Part shown: positions 6,533 to 52,063 of the stretch, one piece after another | Numbering within the stretch: position 1 is the stretch's first letter | Layout: the number at the start of each line of letters is the position of its first letter | NCBI GenBank assembly: GCA_034687125.1 | Contig: JAQGBZ010000056.1 | Location: 184,484 to 248,483 of the forward strand | Origin: Neelides folsomi | Taxonomy: Eukaryota; Arthropoda; Collembola; Neelipleona; Neelidae | Length of the DNA stretch: 64,000 nucleotides | Reading direction: 5' to 3' | Notes under the pieces: model-generated | Databases searched by the model: none | What the model saw: only the letters and a program-made list of their open reading frames with translations | What the model was told of the DNA's origin: nothing | Made by a program: the position numbers and the translations under genes

Positions 6533-8161
6533 ATTTATAAAATTAAGGATTGGTTATTTATGTTAGATCCCCTCAACACAGGTGCTTCAAATAGTCTAAA
6601 TTATTATTTTTATGTGAACTCTTCATTAAAATCAAATCAGCGTGTTTGATATTGTCCAAAAAGTTATATAATTCTTATAAATAATATATTTATATATTAA
6701 AAATAGTTATACTCACACCTACTTAAGTTTTTCTCAGGCCGACAATTTAAACTGTATATTATACAATTAATCTAATCAGTATAATTAACAATTAATAATT
6801 ACTAAGATTAATGCAAACACTTTATGAGCAGTTTGATTTTTTGAATAGCTATAAAGACATGTTAAATATTACCTAATAGCTAGTAATTAGGAAATGGTGA
6901 CTTGCTTAAAAAGATGAGTTTATTGTTTTTCTGTACATTAGGTCAGGAGATTAATGTCCATTGTATTTGATACGAGGAAGACTTTCATTAAATGTTTAAC
7001 TAATTATATATATATTAATATATTTAATGTATTGGTTAAAAGAAAATAATTTTATATACAACTGCAAGTTGAACAGATATACCGTGTAATACGCCCTTAC
7101 TTAAAAATGGTGATAGTCTTATTCCTTTGAAGTTAGTTCTGTGATATATTAAAATTAAAAACAATCATGTGTGTAATATTAATCTTTTGTAGATTTCATT
7201 TATGTAATTATGTGTTTAACTACTGATGTATTTACTTTAATCATTCCCCGTTACACCCTTAGTTATATTCAAAATATAATTAATTTCCTTGAGCATTGTT
7301 CAATTAATGAGCTGGATTTTAAGGGTTAAATTAATTGAATTATCCAAAAATTCATTGGTGCGATTCTTAATTACATTTATATTATACATAATCAGGAAAC
7401 TCAATACTGTGAATCTCGTTAAATACTATTGCTAATATATATTGGAAATAAATGTATCATTGTTATTTATGTCATGAAAGTGTGCTTATGTGCATTAAAC
7501 GAAATGGATCAAATAAACGTTCAAGTTTCAATCAAAGAAGATCTTTTATTTACTCGAAGTTTATTTATTGCCTCTTTGCCAATTATGAGCCATTCTAATT
7601 AACCAGTATTTAAGCTTAATAAATAAGAGACAAAGAAATTGAAAAATATTTAATTACTCCAATTAACTTCATTTTTACATATTACAATGGCCAATCCAAC
7701 TCATAGCAAAGATCTTTTTTTATCATTTAATTAGAATTAATCAAGAAGATTTAAATATCAATTCGTTCAATATGCACAATTAAATTATACCGATTATTAT
7801 AAAAGAATGTGACAAGAAGGAAAAAGAGTTTAACTCCAGCTTCACATGGGAAAATAATAATTAATAGTAATTTATATATTTTATAGTTATTCGTGAAATA
7901 ACCAACTTATGATCCTATTTATGACAAAGAATAAGACTAAATTGACCAACTTCCAATATAATTATTCACGGAAATAATATAATTGTATACGATTTTACAT
8001 AATGGATTATGCTTTTTAGCATGTTACTATTTATATAATAAATTTTTAAATGTCTAAATTTCGAATTCTAATTAGAAGTCTAGCTTTAAGTCATAAGCAT
8101 GTGAAAGCTATTTGGAGTATTTTAGCTAATTTTTAGTTATTGAAGAAGTTGAAACGAGAGT
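6533..8161. other. AT-rich intergenic stretch, convergent 3' ends
   Basis: Region between the TMEM68 stop and the FKBP stop on the opposite strand, so it should hold both 3' UTRs. It is full of AT runs and short repeats such as TATATATTAATATATT near 7008. I see no coding exon, RNA gene or clear transposon end in it. Confidence 0.55.
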
Positions 8162-21700: not shown

Positions 21701-24700
21701 CCTAACAGCTGATCAATGAGTTTAAATGTATTTCTTATAAAAATCAAAGGAATGAATAGCTTAATGATTAAAATATAAATATATCTAGAGACCGGACTTT
21801 TATGTTTTGACATATTTTTTATCTTTGAGGAATATCGCCTGAAACTTTGGAAACGTCCGTATTGGCCAACATAAGGAATCATTAGACTATGTTGTTAGAG
21901 AATATTTGGGCATGTTAGGGAATATTGCGGAATATTAAAAAATATTTTATGTCGTTACGGAATATAAAGAATATTTTAGGGGTTTCAAGGTTTGAGTTTA
22001 TATAATGGGTCAAAAAGCTGCTTTTCATTGCCCAAAAACTGTCTGTGCTTATGTTTTTGCACAATTAAGATACTCAATTCATTGAAATTATGAAATTACT
22101 TCAGTGAAATTACATCAGTAGTACTAAATATTTAGTACTACTGATAGATAAATATATCATACTTTATGGTACATTCCATACATTATTCGTAAGTGTTAAA
22201 ATGATATAGGTTTTCTGGTTTAAAAATATTTTAGACAATATAAGGCTTTTAGGCTTACTTATTAAAATAAAAACGGGGATAAATGCCTGATAGAACATTT
22301 AACAGTTTACTTGAACATATATTTATTTATTTGTCAAGTTTCATATTGTTTAAGAACGAGAAACTAATGAGTTATTAAGTAATTATTTTAAGTTTATTAT
22401 TAAATACAATTGGGTTTATTCAATTTTTTTCTTTGTAAAAACCTAATTTTACCTCAAAATTTTCATATTACATATTTTGCATATGAGAGAATATTGGGAA
22501 TATAAGGGAATATTTTGCATATTTCGCCATATTTTAACGGAATATTGCATACATATTTTAGGGTTTTATAGGGAATATATGTCCGGTCTCTAATAATATC
22601 TAGATAATTTTATCGAGATGACTATCATTGATTCTTTATTCCGAGTAATTAGTTGAACAGAGTCAAACCGGTAAACCTTGATAATTTATGTGATTAAATC
22701 TTAATCTCACATTCAGTAAATTATATTTTAAAAACTCGTTTGATTAAATCCGTTCGTTTTATTTTATTTAATAGAATATTTGAATATTGTCTCTTTGAAA
22801 AGGAAAGCAATAGGGTAAATTTTAGCCATTTGCCGATTCCAACTTCATCCAGCATGCAGGATGAACTTTTGCCGCAAGGCACAATCGGGCATCCAGCAAT
22901 GCCGGATTGAGCTCTGGGTGGTTTGTAAGTTCATCTCCTTCCTTCCCCTTCCATTGTACCGGAAATAATAGGGAGTTACCCGTACAAAAATTACTTTCAT
23001 AGAGAGATCATGGGAGCATGATTTGAATTATTAAACCTTTATTCCTTAAATGCATTCATGTAAATGCGCATTTGAGAGATTAAGCATTATGCATTAAAAA
23101 TAAACATTAAGCATTTGACAAGTCCACAAAATGAACAATAACTTTAACCATTATAACTCGAATAATCATAACTTGACTTAAATGGCATTTAATTTGTCAA
23201 AAGAGGTTAAGTATTATATTTGAATAGATGACTTTATTTAAAAGATTTTTTTATTTTTATAGTTTTAAACTAGTAGGCAAATAATTAACTGATAAATCAT
23301 GAAACGTCTCCTGAGTCAATTAAATAAGCTATAAATCCCATTCAAAGTCTCTTGTGATTCAAGTGATTTAAGAAACCCAGAAATGTTAAAAATTGAGTTT
23401 AAAAATGTAATTGATTTTGACATGAATGATTTCAGAGGACCTTGGTAAGACTTCGAAAACCGTGTCTGTGATAGCTCCTGAATCATCTCCCACTACACCG
23501 AATGAGGACGAAGATCGCGAGACTTGGTCTCAATCCCTCGACTTCCTTTTATCTATCATTGGATTTGCTGTAGATCTCGCCAATGTCTGGAGATTTCCTT
23601 ACTTTTGCTATAAAAATGGAGGCGGTAAATATTTTTAGCTAAATATCAACAATAATCATCTTTAATCTTTAGAATTTTTAAATTATATTTAATTGTTATT
23701 TAAATGCAAGATTAATCCAATTGTTTTTAAATGGAATATTAATCCAATTGTTCTTTATTGCGAAAATTTAGGAGCATTTCTCATTCCATACTTTCTCATG
23801 CTGGCCTTCAGTGCCGTTCCTGTCTTCTACATGGAACTTCTTCTTGGACAATCAATTCGGCAGGGTCCGATTTCCATGTGGAAGATCTGTCCACTCTTTA
23901 AAGGTTACAATTCCTTTTAATTTTGTAAAGGTCATGATTGTATAAATTGTCTTTGATTAATTGTTTAGAATAATTAATTTGAATAGTTTCCCCAATTAAA
24001 GTAAATCCAATTTAGGAATTGGGTACTGTGCCGTGACAGTTTCATACTTTGTCTCGTTTTACTACAATACAATCATGGGTTGGTCTCTCCACTACACAAT
24101 TCATTCCTTTGTTTCTCCGCTTCCTTGGACGACGTGCAACAACAGTTGGAATACCGACAACTGCTTCATCCCACCCGACAATAACACAGGAGAAGAACCC
24201 AATGTACGGCCACCCAATGCCACATCACCTGCATCGGAATATTTCAGGTATTTTTTTTAATTTAAATTCGAACTTCATCGTCGCATCGCTATTCAAATAC
24301 CAACCAATGGGCATTTCCCCGATTTTCATTAAAATTTAGTAAAAGTGGAATCGAATAAATCAATTCGGGATTTGTAATTAAGTTAAAGGGATTCTTCGAA
24401 TTTGATTAGAAAGAAATGAATGATTCAAAGCCCATTGTGTGGGAGACAAAAGGTTCATTTCGCCATTCAACCTTAAATTGTAGTTTTCCTTTTCTCCATC
24501 TGGGCCTTGAGAGTTTTGAGCGGTGAGAGAATGTTGACAAAAGGACTAAGATTCAATGTAGATGCAAATCATCCTCGGGAATAAATTCTTCAAAGGATGT
24601 TGTCGAAGATTAAAAACCTTTTCCTTCTCTTCAGTGTTTTAGGAAAAAGCGAGGAAAAGATTTCTGCCCATACTCTCTCCATTTACACTCTCAAAGGTCC

Positions 24701-27700
24701 TCATTTACATTCGAAAATTCAAAATATATCCTTCTACCCCAAACACGTCATTTTATAAACATCTTTCACATATGTATAGAATAGAATTTGTGAGGGAAGG
24801 TTCTTCATAAATAGGAATATAAAAATATAAATAAATACAATATATCCACCACTCTCACAATATACCATACAGATGTAAATTTCTCCTACACACCATATAT
24901 ACCTTATTATGTATATTCTGTACATATTCTGAAGTATTGCCATATTCTGAATGGAAGTTCCGTTCCGTCCCCTTTGTTTTTGTTCCAGCTTTCACACCTA
25001 TCTATCTATGTACTTCAATTCAATCTTTTTTCAATTTTTTTTCACTTAAGTTCTAAATGTCAAAAGTTGAAAATGATGAATTGGACAAAACCAAATCAGA
25101 AAACTTTTTGTGTCAATGTCACTTTTTCTATGATTCTCTTTTTGATCATTTCGTAAATTCCGAATATTTAAATTGAGTTTAATATTTAAATAGGTATTTT
25201 CACTTATTTACATACAGCTGCATTGTGTAAATCTGTAAACATATTTTGTAACTTTAAAGTTTTCTTCTTAAAAATAGGACCAGAGTGTTTTTACTATAAA
25301 ACTTGCGAATTTTATAGACTTTTCATTTTTCGACAACTATTCCATTAAATTCCATTTGGAGGGAAATGATAAAGAATGTGATTTTCTTTTATAATCAATT
25401 TATTTGAAAGTCATCAATCAAAAGCAGAAGACCGGAACTTCCAATCTCTTCATTGTTTACTATTTACGTTAACGTGCACTCGTGCGGGGTTGAATATGGT
25501 GAAAGCAAATAGATAAGATAGACCTCATCCAAAAACCTCATCCGTCGGACCCAATTAAGGTTAAGGAGACTTGGAAGTTCCCTCAGAGTAAATATTTGGG
25601 ATTAATAAAAAATGATATATGGGATGGTCAAGAGTCTCTTATAGACAATGGTATCATTCCATATTTTTACTTTTCTCGTCCTTCACTCTTCCATATGAGT
25701 TATGGCTACACCAATCTCTTATCTCTGGCAATCACCGGACTCAAAATACAATAAGAATAAATATAGAAGGAAGGTGATCATTTGAAAGTCTCTTGGTTCA
25801 TTGGCCATGTCTAATAACAACGATAAGGATGCTATCAAACCAGAATGAGCAACTTTAATACACTCTTATAGCCTATGCCAATAATAATATTATGGTTCAT
25901 TGAATATTTTTACTAGCCAATAAAGAACAGAATACATTTATCATATTCGTTCTTTAAGGTCTAGACTTAAACTAGACTCTAGACAAACCTCCAAAAAGAG
26001 CAAATACAATATGTATAGTATAGGTAAAAAGTATTAAGGTAGATATTAGATACAGATACAATATATCATAAAGTAAAGGCTGTAAAGGTAAAAGGTGTTT
26101 GTGTGAATTTATGATATAGAAAAGGGTATATGGAATTTAATGAAATAAATGAAATGATATTATGCAATTCTTATTTTTTGCCGAACTTGTTACAGACGGA
26201 GTGTGTTGGAGATGCAAGATCACGATATTGACAATTTGGGCCGGCCGAAAACGGATCTTTTGCTCTGCCTTGGAATCATCTACTGCCTCCTTTACGTCAT
26301 TCTTTTCCGTGGCATTAGAAGCACGGGTAAGAGAAAATTGGAAATCTCTTTTTCGCCCACTCACCGTTTTTTATATTTTCTTATAGGGAAAGTTGTATGG
26401 GTCACAGCGACCCTTCCCTACATGGTCATGTTCATTCTACTCATAAGGGGTCTGACCCTTGAAGGAGCCTCGGATGGAATTTATTATTATCTCGTACCTA
26501 ACATGACAAAACTGAGAGAAGTCGGGGTAAGTTGGTTTAAATAATCTCTGGGTTCCATTTAATTGGAACCACTATTTAGCATCAATTTTAAATGGGGTTC
26601 AAACATCCGCTTGAAAGCTTTATTTTACGTCAGAGCGATTATTAATTCCTAATATGTCTGAACGGTTATGGTCGTTTAAATAGTAGTTTTATATTAAAAG
26701 CCCATTAGAAATGTTTATACTTGCTATCTGTAATCTCATTATTAAATATGTATACGTAGGGAAAGATGTGATGAGATGAAGAGACCACAAAGGATGTTCA
26801 TTTTTAATGAGGGATATTTTATATGCAAATAGAGCTGTAAAATTAAAATTAAGAGGATATTTGTTTAAATAATAATTCATTTATCTTGTGGGAAGGTATG
26901 GAGTGACGCGGCTAAACAAATATTCTTCTCATCTGGTGCCGGATTCGGTGTTCATCTGACTTATGCCAGCTATAACAATTTTCACAATAATTGTTACAGG
27001 TTCGATTTATTATTGTAGTATCAGATATACAATATTAAATATTTATATAGTGCTCTACATGTACTATACATGTGCTAATACAGAATATGTACATATGTAT
27101 GTGCGACATTTGTGAAAATGATACAAGATATTATGCTTAAACAATGTTTTATGTTACTCTCAGAGATTGTATTGTAACGTCGTTGGTCAATTGCTTTACG
27201 AGTATTTTCTCCGGGTTTGTCATCTTCACCTACTTGGGTTCTATGGCCTTGAGACAAGGAAGACAGATAGACGAAGTCGTCAATGTTGGCACGTCTCTCA
27301 CATGCTCTATTAAATACTAAATCAAAGAGGAAGAAAAAATTGACATTCATATTTTGGGATGATTTGAATAGGGCCAGGCCTCGTGTTTGAAGTTTATCCC
27401 GAGGCTGTTGGAACGTTGCCTGGAGCCAATTTTTGGTCTTTACTCTTCTTCATCATGTTGATCATGTTGGGGATTGACAGTGCTGTAAGTGAAAGTTTTG
27501 TCGTCATATTACATATTTTATCTGTACATGAACTTATTATAGATTAAGTATAAAAGCTATAAATGTATAATAACTATTGTAAAATTTTTATATTTAGATG
27601 GGTGGACTCGAATGTGTAATCACAGGAATCAGCGACGAATTTAAAACTTGGTTCAAAAAGATTAAATTTTCGAGAGAAGTCTTCATGTTTGCTTGTGTGT

Positions 27701-28536
27701 TCCTCTCCTTTCTCATAAGCATCGTCAACATTACAAGGGTGCGAATCTTCTCCAAATTATATAATTTTTTAACTTCGTTTACTTTTACTTTGTGTAGAAT
27801 ATGAATTCAATTGGCCAATTATATTGTTTAACTTATAGGGAGGAATGTATACGTTTACCTTTTTCGACACGTATGCGGCTGGAAGTTCTCTTCTCTTTGC
27901 TGTACTCTTCGAAGTTATTGTCGTCTCTTGGGTTTATGGTAAATACATAATAATATATTGTTTATATCTTTAGGACGGGAATAAGATTTATTTGAATAAA
28001 ATATGTATACCATATGTAATCTATGATTTTTATTTACGTTAGGATTGGATCAACTTGGTGGAGACGCGGAAAAAATGATTGGCCATCAACCTGGATTGTA
28101 TTGGAGGATTTGTTGGAAGTTTGTCAGCCCGGTTCTAATAGCTGTAAGAAAATAATATTTTCTTTTCTTTTAACAACTCACTCTGACATTCTATTTTTTA
28201 TCAAGGTTATTATCGTACTCGATTTTGCAACTTCAACGCCTTTAAAACATGATGATTATGAATATCCTCGTTGGGCGCAAATCTGCGGCTTCATCTTCAC
28301 TTTCATTCCGATCACTCTCGTCCCCATAGTCGGGCTCATTGAGTTTTTCCAATTTCCCGGAGCTTGCAAAACCGTAAGTTAAATGGGAAAAATAAAATTA
28401 CAATAGATTTTAATATAAATTATATTTTCGATAGAAACTCGCTTATGCCATCACTCCAATTCAAGAACATGCAGGAATTAAAGAAAGAGGATTTGTGAAA
28501 AGGTTTAAAATCTCTCATTGGATCTATTTCCGGTGA
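18749..28536 (+). CDS. DAT: Sodium-dependent monoamine transporter, dopamine-transporter-like (SLC6 family)
   Basis: Fifteen exons join in phase: 18749..19022, 19308..19481, 23436..23624, 23772..23903, 24016..24247, 26196..26326, 26387..26526, 26896..26999, 27164..27288, 27372..27484, 27598..27738, 27839..27938, 28043..28143, 28206..28373, 28435..28536, giving 741 residues. TM1 has [13 protein letters not shown]; Asp196 matches the amine-binding Asp79 of human [18 protein letters not shown], the disulfide pair in [23 protein letters not shown] in TM6, [20 protein letters not shown] and a C-terminal KLAYAITP...HWIYF match DAT/NET better than the serotonin transporter. It should recover dopamine or a related amine at nerve terminals using Na+ and Cl-. 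The first two exons add about 150 residues of Ser-rich cytosolic N terminus; a shorter start at 23426 is possible. One intron appears to use a GC donor (27289). Confidence 0.9.
21586..22916. mobile_element. hAT-like non-autonomous element (outer copy)
   Basis: The left end reads CAGTGCTCTCCATCCGGCA and the complement of the right end reads CAGAGCTCAATCCGGCA. Both sit next to several subterminal CCGGCAT/CCGGATG repeats (21597-21670 and 22847-22908). A CAGNG start fits the YARNG rule of hAT terminal repeats. I see no transposase frame and no clean 8-base duplication at the edges. Most of its length is taken up by a second element at 21786-22592. Confidence 0.55.
21786..22592. mobile_element. 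hAT-like MITE nested in the outer element
   Basis: A perfect 12-base terminal inverted repeat, TAGAGACCGGAC at 21786-21797, is complemented at 22581-22592. The flanking 8-mers AATATATC and ATAATATC match at six of eight positions, consistent with an aged 8-base hAT target duplication. The interior carries repeated GGAATATT/GAATATTTT words in both halves, a typical subterminal repeat pattern, and no coding frame. Confidence 0.6.
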
Positions 28537-31017: not shown

Positions 31018-32066
31018 TTAACATTTCTGTAATATATTGTTTTTATGAAGCATGCGAAAGTCCATTATTTTTATAACTTATTGTTAGTTAACCTCGATTA
31101 AAATTTTATTTATAATTTTTTGAAAAATATCTTACTTGTTTTTCCATCATTTTCGCAAATGAACCTTGCAAGCATTCAATGAAATTTCCGTACGATTCAC
31201 AAATTTCATCCTTTGGATCCAATTTTCCGACTACACATTTTTATAAAAATTTATTTAACAAAATTCAACAAAGAAAAAAGTCTTTAATTACTTATGTAAA
31301 AAGCCAATCATATATCACTCACACATAAGAATACATAGGTAGGTAGGTAGTATATACATATTTTAATTACCGAATTTGGTTAAACATGGTTCAAAATATG
31401 GTTGAGTTGGTTTGACGAAATTTTCGGGCACAGCCATTGCTGCAAATCCAGCCCAAGACTCATTTGTCAACATATGTTTCTCATCTACCTATGATTAAAT
31501 ATATAATATTTAATTAGGTACCTACCTGTACTTACATACATATCACATGTAAATAGATCATATTTATTATAAAAAAGACCCAATTGCACATTCTAGTAAA
31601 ATGAAACGTTAAAGAGCAAAGCAATTACCATTTTAGCTTTTATCATGAGACATTTGAGAACACACTGGAAGATTAAGAAATAGAAAAAGTTTAATCAAAT
31701 TTTTTCAATATAAAGAATATAATAAAAATAAATGGTATATGATCTACGTTTAATATACCTTGAATTTATTCCCAAACTCTACTTTATCAGGAATGAGAGC
31801 TGAGAGTTCTCTTGAGCAGGCTCCAACAGTTTTAAACATTGCTTTTCCCTGTCTTCCAGTATATTTTTTAATTCCTGGACAATCAAAGGAAAGTTCCTTC
31901 TCATCTTTGCAATCAACCTGTTTATTTCATTAACATATTTTTCACTTATTAATTTAAAATAATTATATCATTTGAAATAATAAAATTTAAATTTGGTCCT
32001 GGTTCATATATCACATACGTAAAATGTAATGAAGGAGAAGCAGAAAAGGATTGATAGAAATCTCAT
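31018..32066 (-). CDS. Secreted odorant-binding-protein-like six-cysteine protein
   Basis: Six small exons on the minus strand join in phase: 32066..32019, 31917..31759, 31664..31629, 31488..31371, 31230..31136, 31026..31018, giving 154 residues. Residues 1-16, MRFLSILFCFSFITFY, are a signal peptide. Cysteines fall as C50-x19-C70-x3-C74-x41-C116-x14-C131-x8-C140. The x3 and x8 spacings (CVLKC; CESYGNFIEC) are the hallmark of insect OBPs, although x19 is shorter than the usual 22-32. Extra cysteines at 19, 29 and 154 suggest an additional bond. OBPs are helical carriers of small hydrophobic ligands in sensillar lymph and other fluids. It is tail-to-tail with the dopamine-like transporter. The last exon codes only Lys-Cys-stop. 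The family call is mine from cysteine spacing; a different small helical secreted family is possible. Confidence 0.7.
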
Positions 32067-35865: not shown

Positions 35866-38501
35866 TTAAATAAATAAGCATTCTTGATTCAAATTTGGTT
35901 TTGGTTGTAGTGGTGGAAGTTTCACAACTTCCATTGAGTCCCATGAACCAGGAAACCTTGAACCATCGCTTTGATTACACTGCATGTCAATTGGTGAATT
36001 GTTGTAGAAATCTGAGAGCAATTTGGCTCTGAAAGGAGTCCAGCGGATTCCATAATAATTTTCCGACACTGCTGCTTCTGCATCAATATCTTGACCTTCC
36101 TCTCTATTTAAAGTTAACATTCACTCACAATCAGTTAAATACAATAGATCTTTAGATTTTTTAAAGTTACTTACTCCGCCATAAAGTGAAAGTAATCTCT
36201 TAATGCGATCCATGAGACTGAACTCTTACAAACTTCAAGTCGAGTTCTTGGATAATACTACAAAAACAAGATAAATTAAATTAGCCAAACATAATCCCGA
36301 TTAACTACAAATTGATCAACAAACTATTGAATTACTTACGTGAATGTAGTTGACACACATTTCTTCACTTATAGAGAATCCTCCAAGAGTAATATTTTCT
36401 CTTCCTGATGTCTGATACTCACAAGTCGTAAGAAGAATATCTCCCTGTCAAAATAAATGACAATGCTTACATTAGTATTAAATGTCAGTGATATGAATAT
36501 GATATATTGCCAATGTATGGATGGTTATGGATTATGGTTAAAATACCGGCAAGACTTTTGTTGGGCTTTTGAGCAGACGAATCTCTTGATAATGTGTTGA
36601 GTAGTGATTGTCCCAATTTAAAGCTGGCAATTCTGAAAACTGCCCATCAAATCCTCTTCGAAAATGCCTTGTGATAACTCTCGTGCCTGTCAGATGTGTA
36701 TGAAGTTGTGATGCAAAAACTGTTATTCCTTCTTCTGGGAGTCCCACTGAAGTACATTCAAAGTTGCAAATCCCAGTTAGCAAAAATCCTTCTTGATGAG
36801 GAGGAATTGCCATTTTGTCAGAATATTCCAATCCAAGTTCAATAACTCCGGCTTCAATTTCTCTTAAATGCTCCGTAATCCAAAATCTCATTCCTGAAGA
36901 GTCGACCCAATCTAAACACATTAAATTTTATGATTTATTCCATAAGCCATAAAATCGATACTCAAATATTTAAACCAATTGAGCAATACATTTGATTAAA
37001 ATGCTACAATTAAAATAACAACATTACTTGACTTGAGTTTCGGGTTATTATAATGCATTTCAAGGCGAACAAAAGGATTAAAGCTTTTTCCTCCAATTGG
37101 ATATCCAGCTTGTTTTGGATATGTCAGCGGATCTGCTCCCATTGCCCAAGCCCCAATCACTTTGTTGCATATTTTCGTTTCTTTTGGTTGTTTATCGCAT
37201 GGACCTGCATAAAGTGGAATTTCTTTTTCTGCATCAGTTTCACAATGGAAAACTTCCATGTGGTGGACAAACTCTTCATTTCCTTTTTCGATTTCAGCCC
37301 CAAACTGAGAAATTTTAGAAATAAAGGGAATGAAATTAATTAATTTAGAAGGAATTTGAATTTTCCAACCTTAACAACATGATGCTTTCTTTGAAGGCTC
37401 TTTGGAAGTTTGACGATTTGACACCAATACATTGTTTCAGTTGCAGGGAAACTCACTTTGGAGTTTCGAACGTCAAACGTTGTGGTTGTTGGATCTAATT
37501 CAGCCGGAGGAATATTATTCTTAAGAAATCGAACCCGCTCAAACCCAACATCAACTTTCTCCTGAATGGAAACTCCTTTGATGTTATATAACGGCCCATC
37601 TCCTTTGCCCCAATGCAAATGAGTTGTTCCTTCCTAGAGAAAATAAATAACCAAGATCAGAATAGATTTTAATATATTTAAGCTTCATTTTGACATGAAC
37701 TCTAATGGATTTTTAATCTTTTCCCATCCATTGGCAAAATTGATACTTGAAGCCATTTAACTTTATAATTAATTTTAATTATATAAAAATTATACAAAAA
37801 AAATTATTCGGAAAATTTTCATATATTGCGTTTGAGTTGAGCATTGAAATATCGTATATTATTAATTTAAATAAAACAAGGGTTAAATTTAACATTTACT
37901 TTACTTCAAGTGCATAATCAAGATGATCACAAGTTACAAACTTTCTCCTAAACGTCCACTTGATAGTTGAATTTTTTTCAATAGTGAATTGGAAATCTTT
38001 GCAGTCCTGTTGATGGTCAGGTATCATTTCATGAGTACCCTCAAGGATATGAACATCCGTGAGTTGATATACTTCATGGTCAAGAAGATGATTTCTCCAA
38101 AGAACACAAAAGTCCCCGGTTCCATCACTCAGATTTCCTTCACTTGAAAATCCAATTCCATTCCATCCCCCTACTTTTGAATCCCAATTGGTTGTGTGAA
38201 TTTCTCCAACAAATTCGTCTAAATGTAAGAATAAATAAAATCCGAAGAATAAAAAAATTAAAATCACAATTTAAAATATTTAGTATATGATTTACATAGA
38301 TCAAAAATGTGGCCGGTAGCTGTTTTTACATAACAGATATTTGTATTTTATTTGTAACGTTAATTGAGATTTCTTATTTGTGTGCTTACCACTGGTGTAA
38401 TCAAGTTCCCAATAAAGAATTGTATTTTGGCCAAGATGTATATTGAAAATTGCCTCAGAAAGTGAAGCGAGGAGGAAGAGACGGAGGACGAACCTCAGCA
38501 T
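35866..38501 (-). CDS. Copper type II monooxygenase, DBH/tyramine beta-hydroxylase/MOXD-like
   Basis: Eight exons on the minus strand, 38501..38390, 38218..37905, 37633..37370, 37304..37028, 36911..36547, 36444..36340, 36257..36175, 36103..35866, join to 585 residues. MLRFVLRLFLLASLSEA is a signal peptide. A DOMON domain spans about residues 20-140, followed by the two-domain catalytic core. All copper ligands are present: His244-His245 (VHHMEVF) and His314 (LEMHY) for CuH; His393 and His395 (LHTHLTG) and Met473 (SISEEMC) for CuM. The family hydroxylates dopamine or tyramine at the beta carbon, or unknown substrates in MOXD, using ascorbate and oxygen in secretory vesicles. Which subfamily it belongs to needs a tree. 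There is no obvious C-terminal membrane anchor. An upstream in-frame codon at 38576 is possible but would bury the signal peptide. Confidence 0.9.
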
Positions 38502-50100: not shown

Positions 50101-52063
50101 AATGAATTCATTACAATTTCATTGTAATTATCTTTAAGAATTTTTCAATCTATTAAAAAATGAATACAATGGATATTGTATTGACCTGCAAACTGCTTAC
50201 TTGCTCTATGCTATTATATTGGATAAAATAAACAAATAATGGCAAAGTTCTTAAAATCACCTCGTTATTAAAATCGCAACTATTAATTCACCCTGCCTCT
50301 GTACCTTGATTGCCCTTACGCTGCCCTTACATATTATCATATATTTACCAATATATGTAAACGGAAATGCAATAAAATTATGTTTAATAGGTAAAGACGG
50401 TAAAGGGGATCGAAAGAAATTGATTAAAAGAAAAGAAGCCGAAAAGATGAAAGAAGCCGAGAAAAGAAAAGCTGAATTGAGAGAAGCTGAAAAAAAGAAA
50501 GAAATTGAACGGTTGGAGATGGAACGAAGAGAAGCAGAGAAACAAAGAGAAATTGAGAGATTAGAAGCTGAGCGAGAAGAATTAGAATTAAGAAGGCAGG
50601 CCGAGAGGAGTAGAAATCCAAATAGAAATGAAAAACGTGATGACAGGAGAAGAGATCACAGAAATGAGAGTGATGAGAGACGAAAGGATCATCGAAATAG
50701 AAGTCATGATAGGGAAAGAGGAAAAGATAACCGAAGAGAAAGAGAAAAAAGCAGTTCAGAGAGAGAAGTCCGATCTTCATATCGAGCACAGCGGAAAGAA
50801 AAAGAAGTAGAAAAACACATCGAAAAAGAGTCGAGAAGAGAAGAGCGACGAGAACCTAATAGTGCCGAACGGGAAAGTCGGAGTCGTCGACGCAGGGAAA
50901 AAATTCCCGAGAGAGAAGTAAGAAGAGATAATAGCAGTTCAGAAAAAGAAGTAATACAAGAACGTCAACGTGAAGTTAAAAAAGCGGATAAAACTGATAA
51001 AAGTTCGAAACGGAGAGAGCAAAGAGATCCCAACAGTTCGGAAGAGGAAACTCAAAAACGTCAACGCGAAGAGAAAGTCGAAAAGAGTTCGAGACGGAGA
51101 GATGAGCAAAGAGAACACAGTTTAGAAAAAGATGTACGAGGAAGACAACGTGAAGATAAAGTAGAAAAAGTTTCTAAACGGAGAGAGCAAAGAGATCCCA
51201 GCAGTTCTGAAGAAGAAATTCGTAATTGTGAAGATAAAAAAGAAAAGAGTTCAAGACAAATAGATGCGAGTTCTTCTTCTTCTACTTCTTCTTCATCATC
51301 ATCTTCTTCTTCTGAGGATCAAGATCGGGAACCTCAACGTGGAGTGAAGATTGCTTCAAAAGTAATTGTAGTGAGAAGACTTGAACGAGCGGAGAGCAGC
51401 ACTGAAAGGGAATTGTTAGAACGTCAACACGAAGCAAAAATAATAGAAGAATATGTGCGAAAAAGAGATGAACAAATGCAGAAAAGCCCAGAAAGGGAAT
51501 CCCGTCGTTCACACCAAGAAAAAAATGTTGAAAGAAGAGAAAGAAGCTCACCAGAATGGGAACGGGAATCTCGCCGTCCACGACAAGAAAAAAATATTGA
51601 AGAGGAGAGAAGAGAGAAACGTCGCGAGAGTAGAGAGAGAGTCGAAAGAACTAATAGGGAAGAAAAGATCCCTGAAAGAGACGAAAGGAGAGAAAGAATT
51701 GAGAGTCGCGAGAGAGTTGATAAAACAATTTCAATAGAAAGAAGTGTCGAACGGAAAAGAAGGGAAGAATCGAAAGAAGATCGAAGGGAGAAGAGAAACG
51801 ATAGCAGGGAAAAGGTCGAAAAAGTAAATCGGGAAGAAAGTGTAGAAAAAGATCGAAGACGCGAAAGAAGTGTCGAAAGAGAGAGAAAACGGGAGAGAGG
51901 CGGTGAAAATGAATACCGAAGACAAGAGAGGAGCGTGGACGAAGATCGAGATCGAAGACGGGAAAAGCAACACGACAGCCGAGATCGAAGTTCCAAAAGG
52001 GATAAAAGTCCCGAACGTGACGATCGCAGAAGAGAAAAACGGGATGAAAAAAGAAGGCGATGA
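47166..52063 (+). CDS. CWC22: CWC22 (nucampholin) spliceosome/EJC loading factor
   Basis: Eight exons in phase, 47166..48242, 48321..48444, 48531..48718, 48892..49141, 49226..49383, 49474..49628, 49736..49935 and 50391..52063, give 1274 residues. After an Arg/Glu/Lys-rich head comes [17 protein letters not shown], the CWC22 signature before its MIF4G domain (about residues 165-360, including [18 protein letters not shown]). An acidic linker and an MA3 domain follow ([29 protein letters not shown]). A Ser run and a 558-residue Arg/Glu/Ser tail close the protein. CWC22 holds eIF4A3 in the spliceosome, seeds exon junction complexes and is needed for splicing itself. Reading on past the donor at 49936 stops at 49976, giving a possible short isoform without the tail. 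The tail is much longer and more charged than in vertebrates. Confidence 0.93.

Follow-up and report, generated by a model that had tools for sequence, protein, structure and literature searches.

Does a gene broken into six tiny exons encode a true odorant-binding protein (OBP) and, if so, where do its cysteines place it between the OBPs of insects and those of chelicerates? In the two groups the fold is roughly alike but the disulfides pair differently, and a common origin is so far a conjecture. The locus lies in a window of 64,000 nucleotides (the whole stretch of DNA that was analysed), on the minus strand at 32066–31018, where six exons of an odorant-binding-type gene join in phase to give a 154-residue protein. 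We number the eight cysteines at issue C0 to C7 from the N-terminus.

Gene structure and family membership

The features of the gene, in window coordinates, are as follows.

32019..32066, minus strand: exon 1, 48 bases; residues 1–16, from the start codon through most of a presumed signal peptide; hydrophobic N-terminus
31759..31917, minus strand: exon 2, 159 bases; residues 17–69, with the presumed end of the signal peptide (Cys19), C0 (Cys29) and C1 (Cys50); matches itself in a search of its own genome
31879..31881, minus strand: codon for Cys29 (C0), the extra cysteine nearer the N-terminus; codon read; equivalent cysteine in six of six host genes
31629..31664, minus strand: exon 3, 36 bases; residues 70–81, with C2-x3-C3 (Cys70, Cys74); phase-0 intron immediately 5′ of C2
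31371..31488, minus strand: exon 4, 118 bases; residues 82–120 and the first base of codon 121, with C4 (Cys116)
31136..31230, minus strand: exon 5, 95 bases; remainder of codon 121 to residue 152, with C5-x8-C6 (Cys131, Cys140); phase-1 intron before it
31018..31026, minus strand: exon 6, 9 bases; Lys-Cys-stop, with C7 (Cys154, codon 31023–31021); phase-0 intron before it

The introns are all GT–AG, with phases 0, 0, 0, 1 and 0, and the joined frame has no in-frame stop. A sequence-only reading of this DNA had proposed six exons with these coordinates and sizes, GT–AG introns and 154 residues, and we recovered all of it. It had also stated that the 9-base final exon adds only a cysteine; exon 6 in fact encodes Lys-Cys, followed by the stop.

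An HMM comparison with the PBP/GOBP family (hmmscan) placed the window protein over the gathering cut-off of Pfam PBP_GOBP (PF01395), with 23.5 bits against 22, and this was the sole Pfam family at E ≤ 10. The proposed odorant-binding-protein-like identity is thereby upheld, the family being that of the OBPs. Searched alone against the PDB with phmmer, the window protein gave no match. A profile built from six host genes matched 49 PDB sequences at E ≤ 10, the best being NribOBP3 (E 8.8e-8). Forty of these carry the name of an odorant- or pheromone-binding protein; another 3, listed under mosquito gene names alone, are, we assume, OBPs; 4 (salivary proteins of insects, or SP15) we take to be insect OBP relatives; and 2 are unrelated. 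One paralogue, on contig C67, by itself matched 17 PDB sequences at E ≤ 10, with a best E of 0.0038; 14 of the 17 are OBPs.

The gene was said to lie next to a dopamine-type transporter, and the neighbour at window 23426–28379 on the plus strand is indeed an SLC6 monoamine transporter of many exons, nearer DAT/NET than SERT (PDB scores of up to 420 bits for NET/DAT and up to 393 for SERT). About 8 kb from the transporter, at window 36541–36927 on the minus strand, is a Copper type II ascorbate-dependent monooxygenase C-terminal domain, presumably of the dopamine or tyramine beta-hydroxylase type, so that the OBP gene is flanked on either side by monoamine-type genes. The window also holds a 602-codon open frame with strong purine skew (50255–52060, plus strand) that has no Pfam match at E ≤ 0.01.

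Paralogues share a tiny last exon

Searching the host genome (75.1 Mb in 840 contigs) by family and by protein, we found at least six OBP genes: the window gene (contig C56) and genes on contigs C731, C436, C486, C67 and C413, the models for C413 and C731 being without first exons. After splicing, three paralogues score over the PBP_GOBP cut-off (C486, 38.0; C67, 32.7; C413, 31.1 bits) and two just under it (C731, 21.0; C436, 19.1 bits). C731 is the nearest paralogue of the window gene, with 42% identity in the best-matching stretch and 41% over the alignment. In the C731 gene (contig positions 6900–6115, minus strand) one open frame of 262 residues holds both the OBP domain and, directly ahead of it, a Thr/Pro-rich stretch (the first 180 residues of the frame include 70 Thr and 18 Pro), as if an OBP had been fused to a mucin-like arm.

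Intron positions recur among the six genes. Four of them (window, C67, C413 and C731) are interrupted in phase 0 directly before C2 and in phase 1 after C4, and in five (the same four and C486) another phase-0 intron leaves a single codon ahead of that for C7. The last exons of those five genes are 9–21 bases long and read KC, MCER, AC, ACKTMR and VCA; in each gene the last intron is thus followed by a single codon and then by the codon for Cys, with a stop no more than five codons later. In the window gene, retention of intron 5 would give a protein that ends in VRYFSKNYK and lacks C7. The sixth gene, C436, lacks the intron before C7 and ends in LPC. When the 200 bases after each last donor were shuffled with dinucleotides preserved, such an acceptor appeared in 48, 166, 54, 74 and 117 of 2000 shuffles; the product of the five fractions, about 1e-7, is a guide only, the criterion having been chosen after the genes were inspected. 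The window gene offers an example of a 9-base exon able to carry a structural element of a protein.

These shared features bear on whether the model of the gene has erroneous ends or describes a pseudogene. The last exon is very short, identity to even the nearest paralogue is 41% and the model was made from DNA alone, but the splice sites are canonical and in phase, no stop interrupts the frame, and the introns and the Cys-bearing last exon are common to the paralogues. We regard an erroneous model or a pseudogene as highly improbable.

The host is probably a springtail

The mitochondrial contig (C742) carries, in its first half, the order I, −Q, M, nad2, W, −C, −Y, cox1, L(UUR), cox2, K, D, atp8/6, cox3, continuing with G, nad3, A, R, S, E, −F, −nad5, −H, −nad4, −nad4L, T, −P, nad6, cob, S, −nad1, −L(CUN), −V. 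Of its proteins, cox1 was identified with Pfam and nad1 in the PDB, the others by eye; trnN was not called, and the rRNAs are presumed to occupy the gaps next to V. A trnL(UUR) between cox1 and cox2 marks Pancrustacea, and its place in this contig therefore indicates the ancestral pancrustacean order. A chelicerate host, such as a mite, was considered and rejected on this arrangement. The same order is given for 24 of 31 springtail mitogenomes in the available text of PMC7153868. ND1 found its best PDB match in Drosophila and is uninformative on order. The trnC of this contig, at 51 bases with the anticodon at position 19 (ARAGORN), looks as if its D arm were missing, and the 75 Mb nuclear genome seems small for a hexapod. 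A search of the host genome for GH45 cellulase gave no match, which does not itself show absence; the enzyme is described, in the portion of the literature available, as present in most springtail lineages and missing from Neelipleona. Viral and prokaryote collections yielded no usable stretch related to the window gene.

The sequence-only reading had held that, outside insects, an OBP-like gene would be rare. That finds no support as it stands for a pancrustacean host that is probably a springtail, as OBPs have already been reported from the springtails Folsomia candida and Orchesella cincta by Pelosi et al., who, in the part of that paper available, describe them as not found in crustaceans (PMC4145409). 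A crustacean host is a lesser possibility.

Four matches to 7tm_6 were found in the host genome, three of them over the cut-off; the best scores better as 7tm_7 (57.7 against 36.4 bits) and the second better as 7tm_6 (29.6 against 14.6 bits). No Orco-like receptor surfaced in this search of the host genome, which had no Orco-bearing genome as a control. Orco would match 7tm_6 far better, and a winged-insect host is therefore unlikely. Receptors also bear on function, since the window protein might keep the OBP fold yet serve outside the senses, as a lipid carrier of the haemolymph or a protein of cuticle or egg, and have no part in olfaction. Many OBPs are not olfactory. The failure of an Orco-like receptor to surface, in a search with no positive control, fits a non-sensory job, as do the small number of OBP genes (the six found being a lower bound) and the Thr-rich stretch of C731, which is unlike a lymph carrier; the presence of at least one gustatory-type receptor (7tm_7, 57.7 bits) speaks against it. 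A non-sensory role is a real possibility, somewhat short of an even chance.

Eight cysteines in the predicted mature protein

The window protein has cysteines at positions 9 and 19 and at 29, 50, 70, 74, 116, 131, 140 and 154. Signal cleavage was placed with a crude −3/−1 rule. A candidate site after Cys19 ('VDC') leaves eight mature cysteines and a less likely one after residue 31 leaves seven; Cys9 and Cys19 are presumed to belong to the signal peptide. C67 has four candidate sites, each of which leaves eight cysteines; in C486, cleavage after residue 21 leaves eight and after residue 19 nine; in C436 the candidate sites leave nine or ten. A ninth cysteine occurs in C436 and in C731, the latter in a model without first exons. 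Both terminal cysteines, C0 and C7, are present in all six host genes, and so are both C2 and C5. The spacings from C0 to C7 are as follows.

Window: 20-19-3-41-14-8-13
C731: 17-19-3-41-14-8-11
C436: 17-9-3-42-14-8-8
C486: 16-26-3-41-19-8-10
C67: 17-18-3-41-12-8-8
C413: 17-21-3-41-15-8-8

The spacings C2-x3-C3, C5-x8-C6 and C1-x19-C2 are as first described. The earlier count of three extra cysteines is right as to residues 29 and 154 and too high by one for the mature protein, Cys19 lying before the candidate cleavage site, as does Cys9, which that count left out. As predicted from the gene, the mature window protein is thus the insect set of six cysteines with one more near each end. An extra disulfide that uses the last cysteine, also suggested earlier, is likely, both terminal cysteines being present in all six host genes. 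Our literature search, in which coverage of subscription papers was limited, found no earlier description of an eight-cysteine plan that would unite the insect and mite patterns, or of a tiny last exon bearing the last cysteine.

Four disulfides are expected on this plan: three interlocked bonds of insect type (50–74, 70–131 and 116–140) and a clasp, 29–154, which would fasten the last helix, at its end, to an N-terminal arm. Cysteines might instead pair otherwise, with Cys29 or Cys154 forming a dimer, or with Cys19 staying in the mature protein and bonding Cys29. The cleavage site rests on a crude rule and the pairing is one that we infer, which leaves room for such arrangements; against them, C0 and C7 co-occur in six of six genes, and in the four genes with complete starts a candidate cleavage site coincides with, or follows, a cysteine upstream of C0. 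We consider these other pairings unlikely.

Comparison with mite proteins

Chelicerate OBPs provide a direct comparison for the proposed clasp. In VdesOBP1 of Varroa the disulfides are 21–141, 41–68 and 111–132 and, in the text available of the same structural study, two bonds occupy conserved three-dimensional positions in insect and mite OBPs, the insect helix 3–6 bond is missing from VdesOBP1, and an extended N-terminus is instead bonded to the last helix (PMC8222343). Four T. urticae OBPs have the same pairing by mass spectrometry (PMC8269058, Table 1). Cysteines for both sets of bonds are therefore present in the host proteins.

Positions in that Table 1 give cysteine spacings of 19-24-42-20-8 in three T. 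urticae proteins and 19-24-42-24-8 in one, and the mite OBPs covered by these sources run 19-24/26-42-20/24-8 overall. With C2 and C5 omitted, four host genes come close to this (window, 20-23-41-23-13; C67, 17-22-41-21-8; C413, 17-25-41-24-8; C731, 17-23-41-23-11) and two fit more poorly (C436, 17-13-42-23-8; C486, 16-30-41-28-10). Where insects have C2 and C5, VdesOBP1 has Ser and Ile, the positions being reckoned from Cys68 and Cys132 of the mite protein. The sequence-only reading made no mention of this likeness of the extra cysteines to the mite pattern.

Sequence similarity between host and mite is marginal. A host-family HMM, built from an alignment anchored at the eight cysteines, scored 10.0 bits on VdesOBP1; as high a score came from 2 of 1000 full shuffles and from 3 of 1000 that kept the cysteines in place. 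The match aligns Vdes cysteines 2, 3 and 4 to host C1, C3 and C4 and, being local, stops before the last two. A profile comparison with VdesOBP1 was weak (probability 0.7%, P 0.08), in the same register. The Varroa OBP (7NYJ) was absent among the 49 PDB matches of the six-gene profile, and a search of the host genome with VdesOBP1, itself uninformative, gave no match. The case for a shared plan is made because of cysteine placement, the short C1–C3 stretch and the published structures.

The terminal cysteines might nevertheless be a convergent extra disulfide of this lineage, as in the Plus-C OBPs of insects, and hence uninformative on an ancestor shared with chelicerates. A bond joining both ends is an easy addition that could arise twice, the similarity to VdesOBP1 is weak, and two of the six genes (C436 and C486) lack the mite-like C1–C3 length. 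In contrast, the proline that Plus-C OBPs conserve directly after C6 occurs in none of the six genes, the HMM found its register with VdesOBP1 unprompted, and C1–C3 is mite-like in four of six (22–25 residues, against 24–26 in mites and 30 in the three insect matches in which it could be counted). Plus-C OBPs with eight or more cysteines do occur in insects, as the part of PMC10926425 available to us describes. Convergence comes close to an even chance.

On the side of common origin, Varroa transcripts are reported, in the available text of PMC5638865, to carry a PBP/GOBP domain, which favours a common origin of insect and mite OBPs; the tick OBP-like proteins described there are without it.

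A proposed function and origin

We think it likely that the locus is a functional OBP gene of the PBP/GOBP family in a non-insect hexapod, probably a springtail, and that it encodes a secreted, helical carrier of small hydrophobic ligands. Secretion, pairing, fold, ligand and site of action are what we infer for the window protein. Its short C1–C2 segment of 19 residues would lack insect helix 2 and give a wider, more open pocket, which the clasp may close or steady, as in VdesOBP1. The protein would be secreted into the lymph around sensory or other cells and ferry ligands to receptors, probably gustatory or ionotropic rather than of the Orco type, or would serve another lipid-carrier role.

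Judged from cysteine patterns, the plan is a union of the insect and mite architectures and possibly near their common ancestor. More specifically, we suggest tentatively, and as something that may well prove wrong, that eight-cysteine, four-disulfide OBPs keep an ancestral arthropod plan, from which insects would have lost the C0–C7 clasp and gained helix 2 and chelicerates would have lost the C2–C5 bridge. The authors of the T. urticae study state, in the sections available, that a common precursor was not found in sequence databases (PMC8269058); if the ancestral plan is true, the host OBPs supply the precursor that they missed. A living form with both cysteine sets would allow a stepwise path between insect and mite OBPs by cysteine loss alone, and makes the question testable.

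Comparison with known systems

Like the classical OBPs of insects (NribOBP3, AgamOBP1, LUSH), the window protein has six cysteines with C2-x3-C3 and C5-x8-C6, is presumed to be secreted, and is recognised by Pfam and by profile search. It differs from them in having eight mature cysteines, the two more lying at the ends, in a tiny last exon that bears the last cysteine, and in a C1–C2 distance of 19 against 26 in the three PDB matches in which it could be counted. Classical insect OBPs range from about 25 to 30 residues between C1 and C2, and paralogue C486 has 26.

Plus-C OBPs also have an extra cysteine between C4 and C5. The window protein has none there, and the residue after C6 is Leu in one of the six host genes and Ile in five, never proline. 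What the window protein does have in common with Plus-C OBPs is a count of eight or more cysteines, which in that group form four or more disulfides, as far as the available text of PMC10926425 describes them.

Chelicerate OBPs (VdesOBP1, 7NYJ; TurtOBP1–4) resemble the window protein in their terminal cysteines and approximate spacing, and four of the six host genes share their short C1–C3 segment; unlike them, the host genes keep the insect C2 and C5. The OBPs of Folsomia candida and Orchesella cincta, as reported in the available part of PMC4145409, probably belong to the same host group and the same gene family as the window gene.
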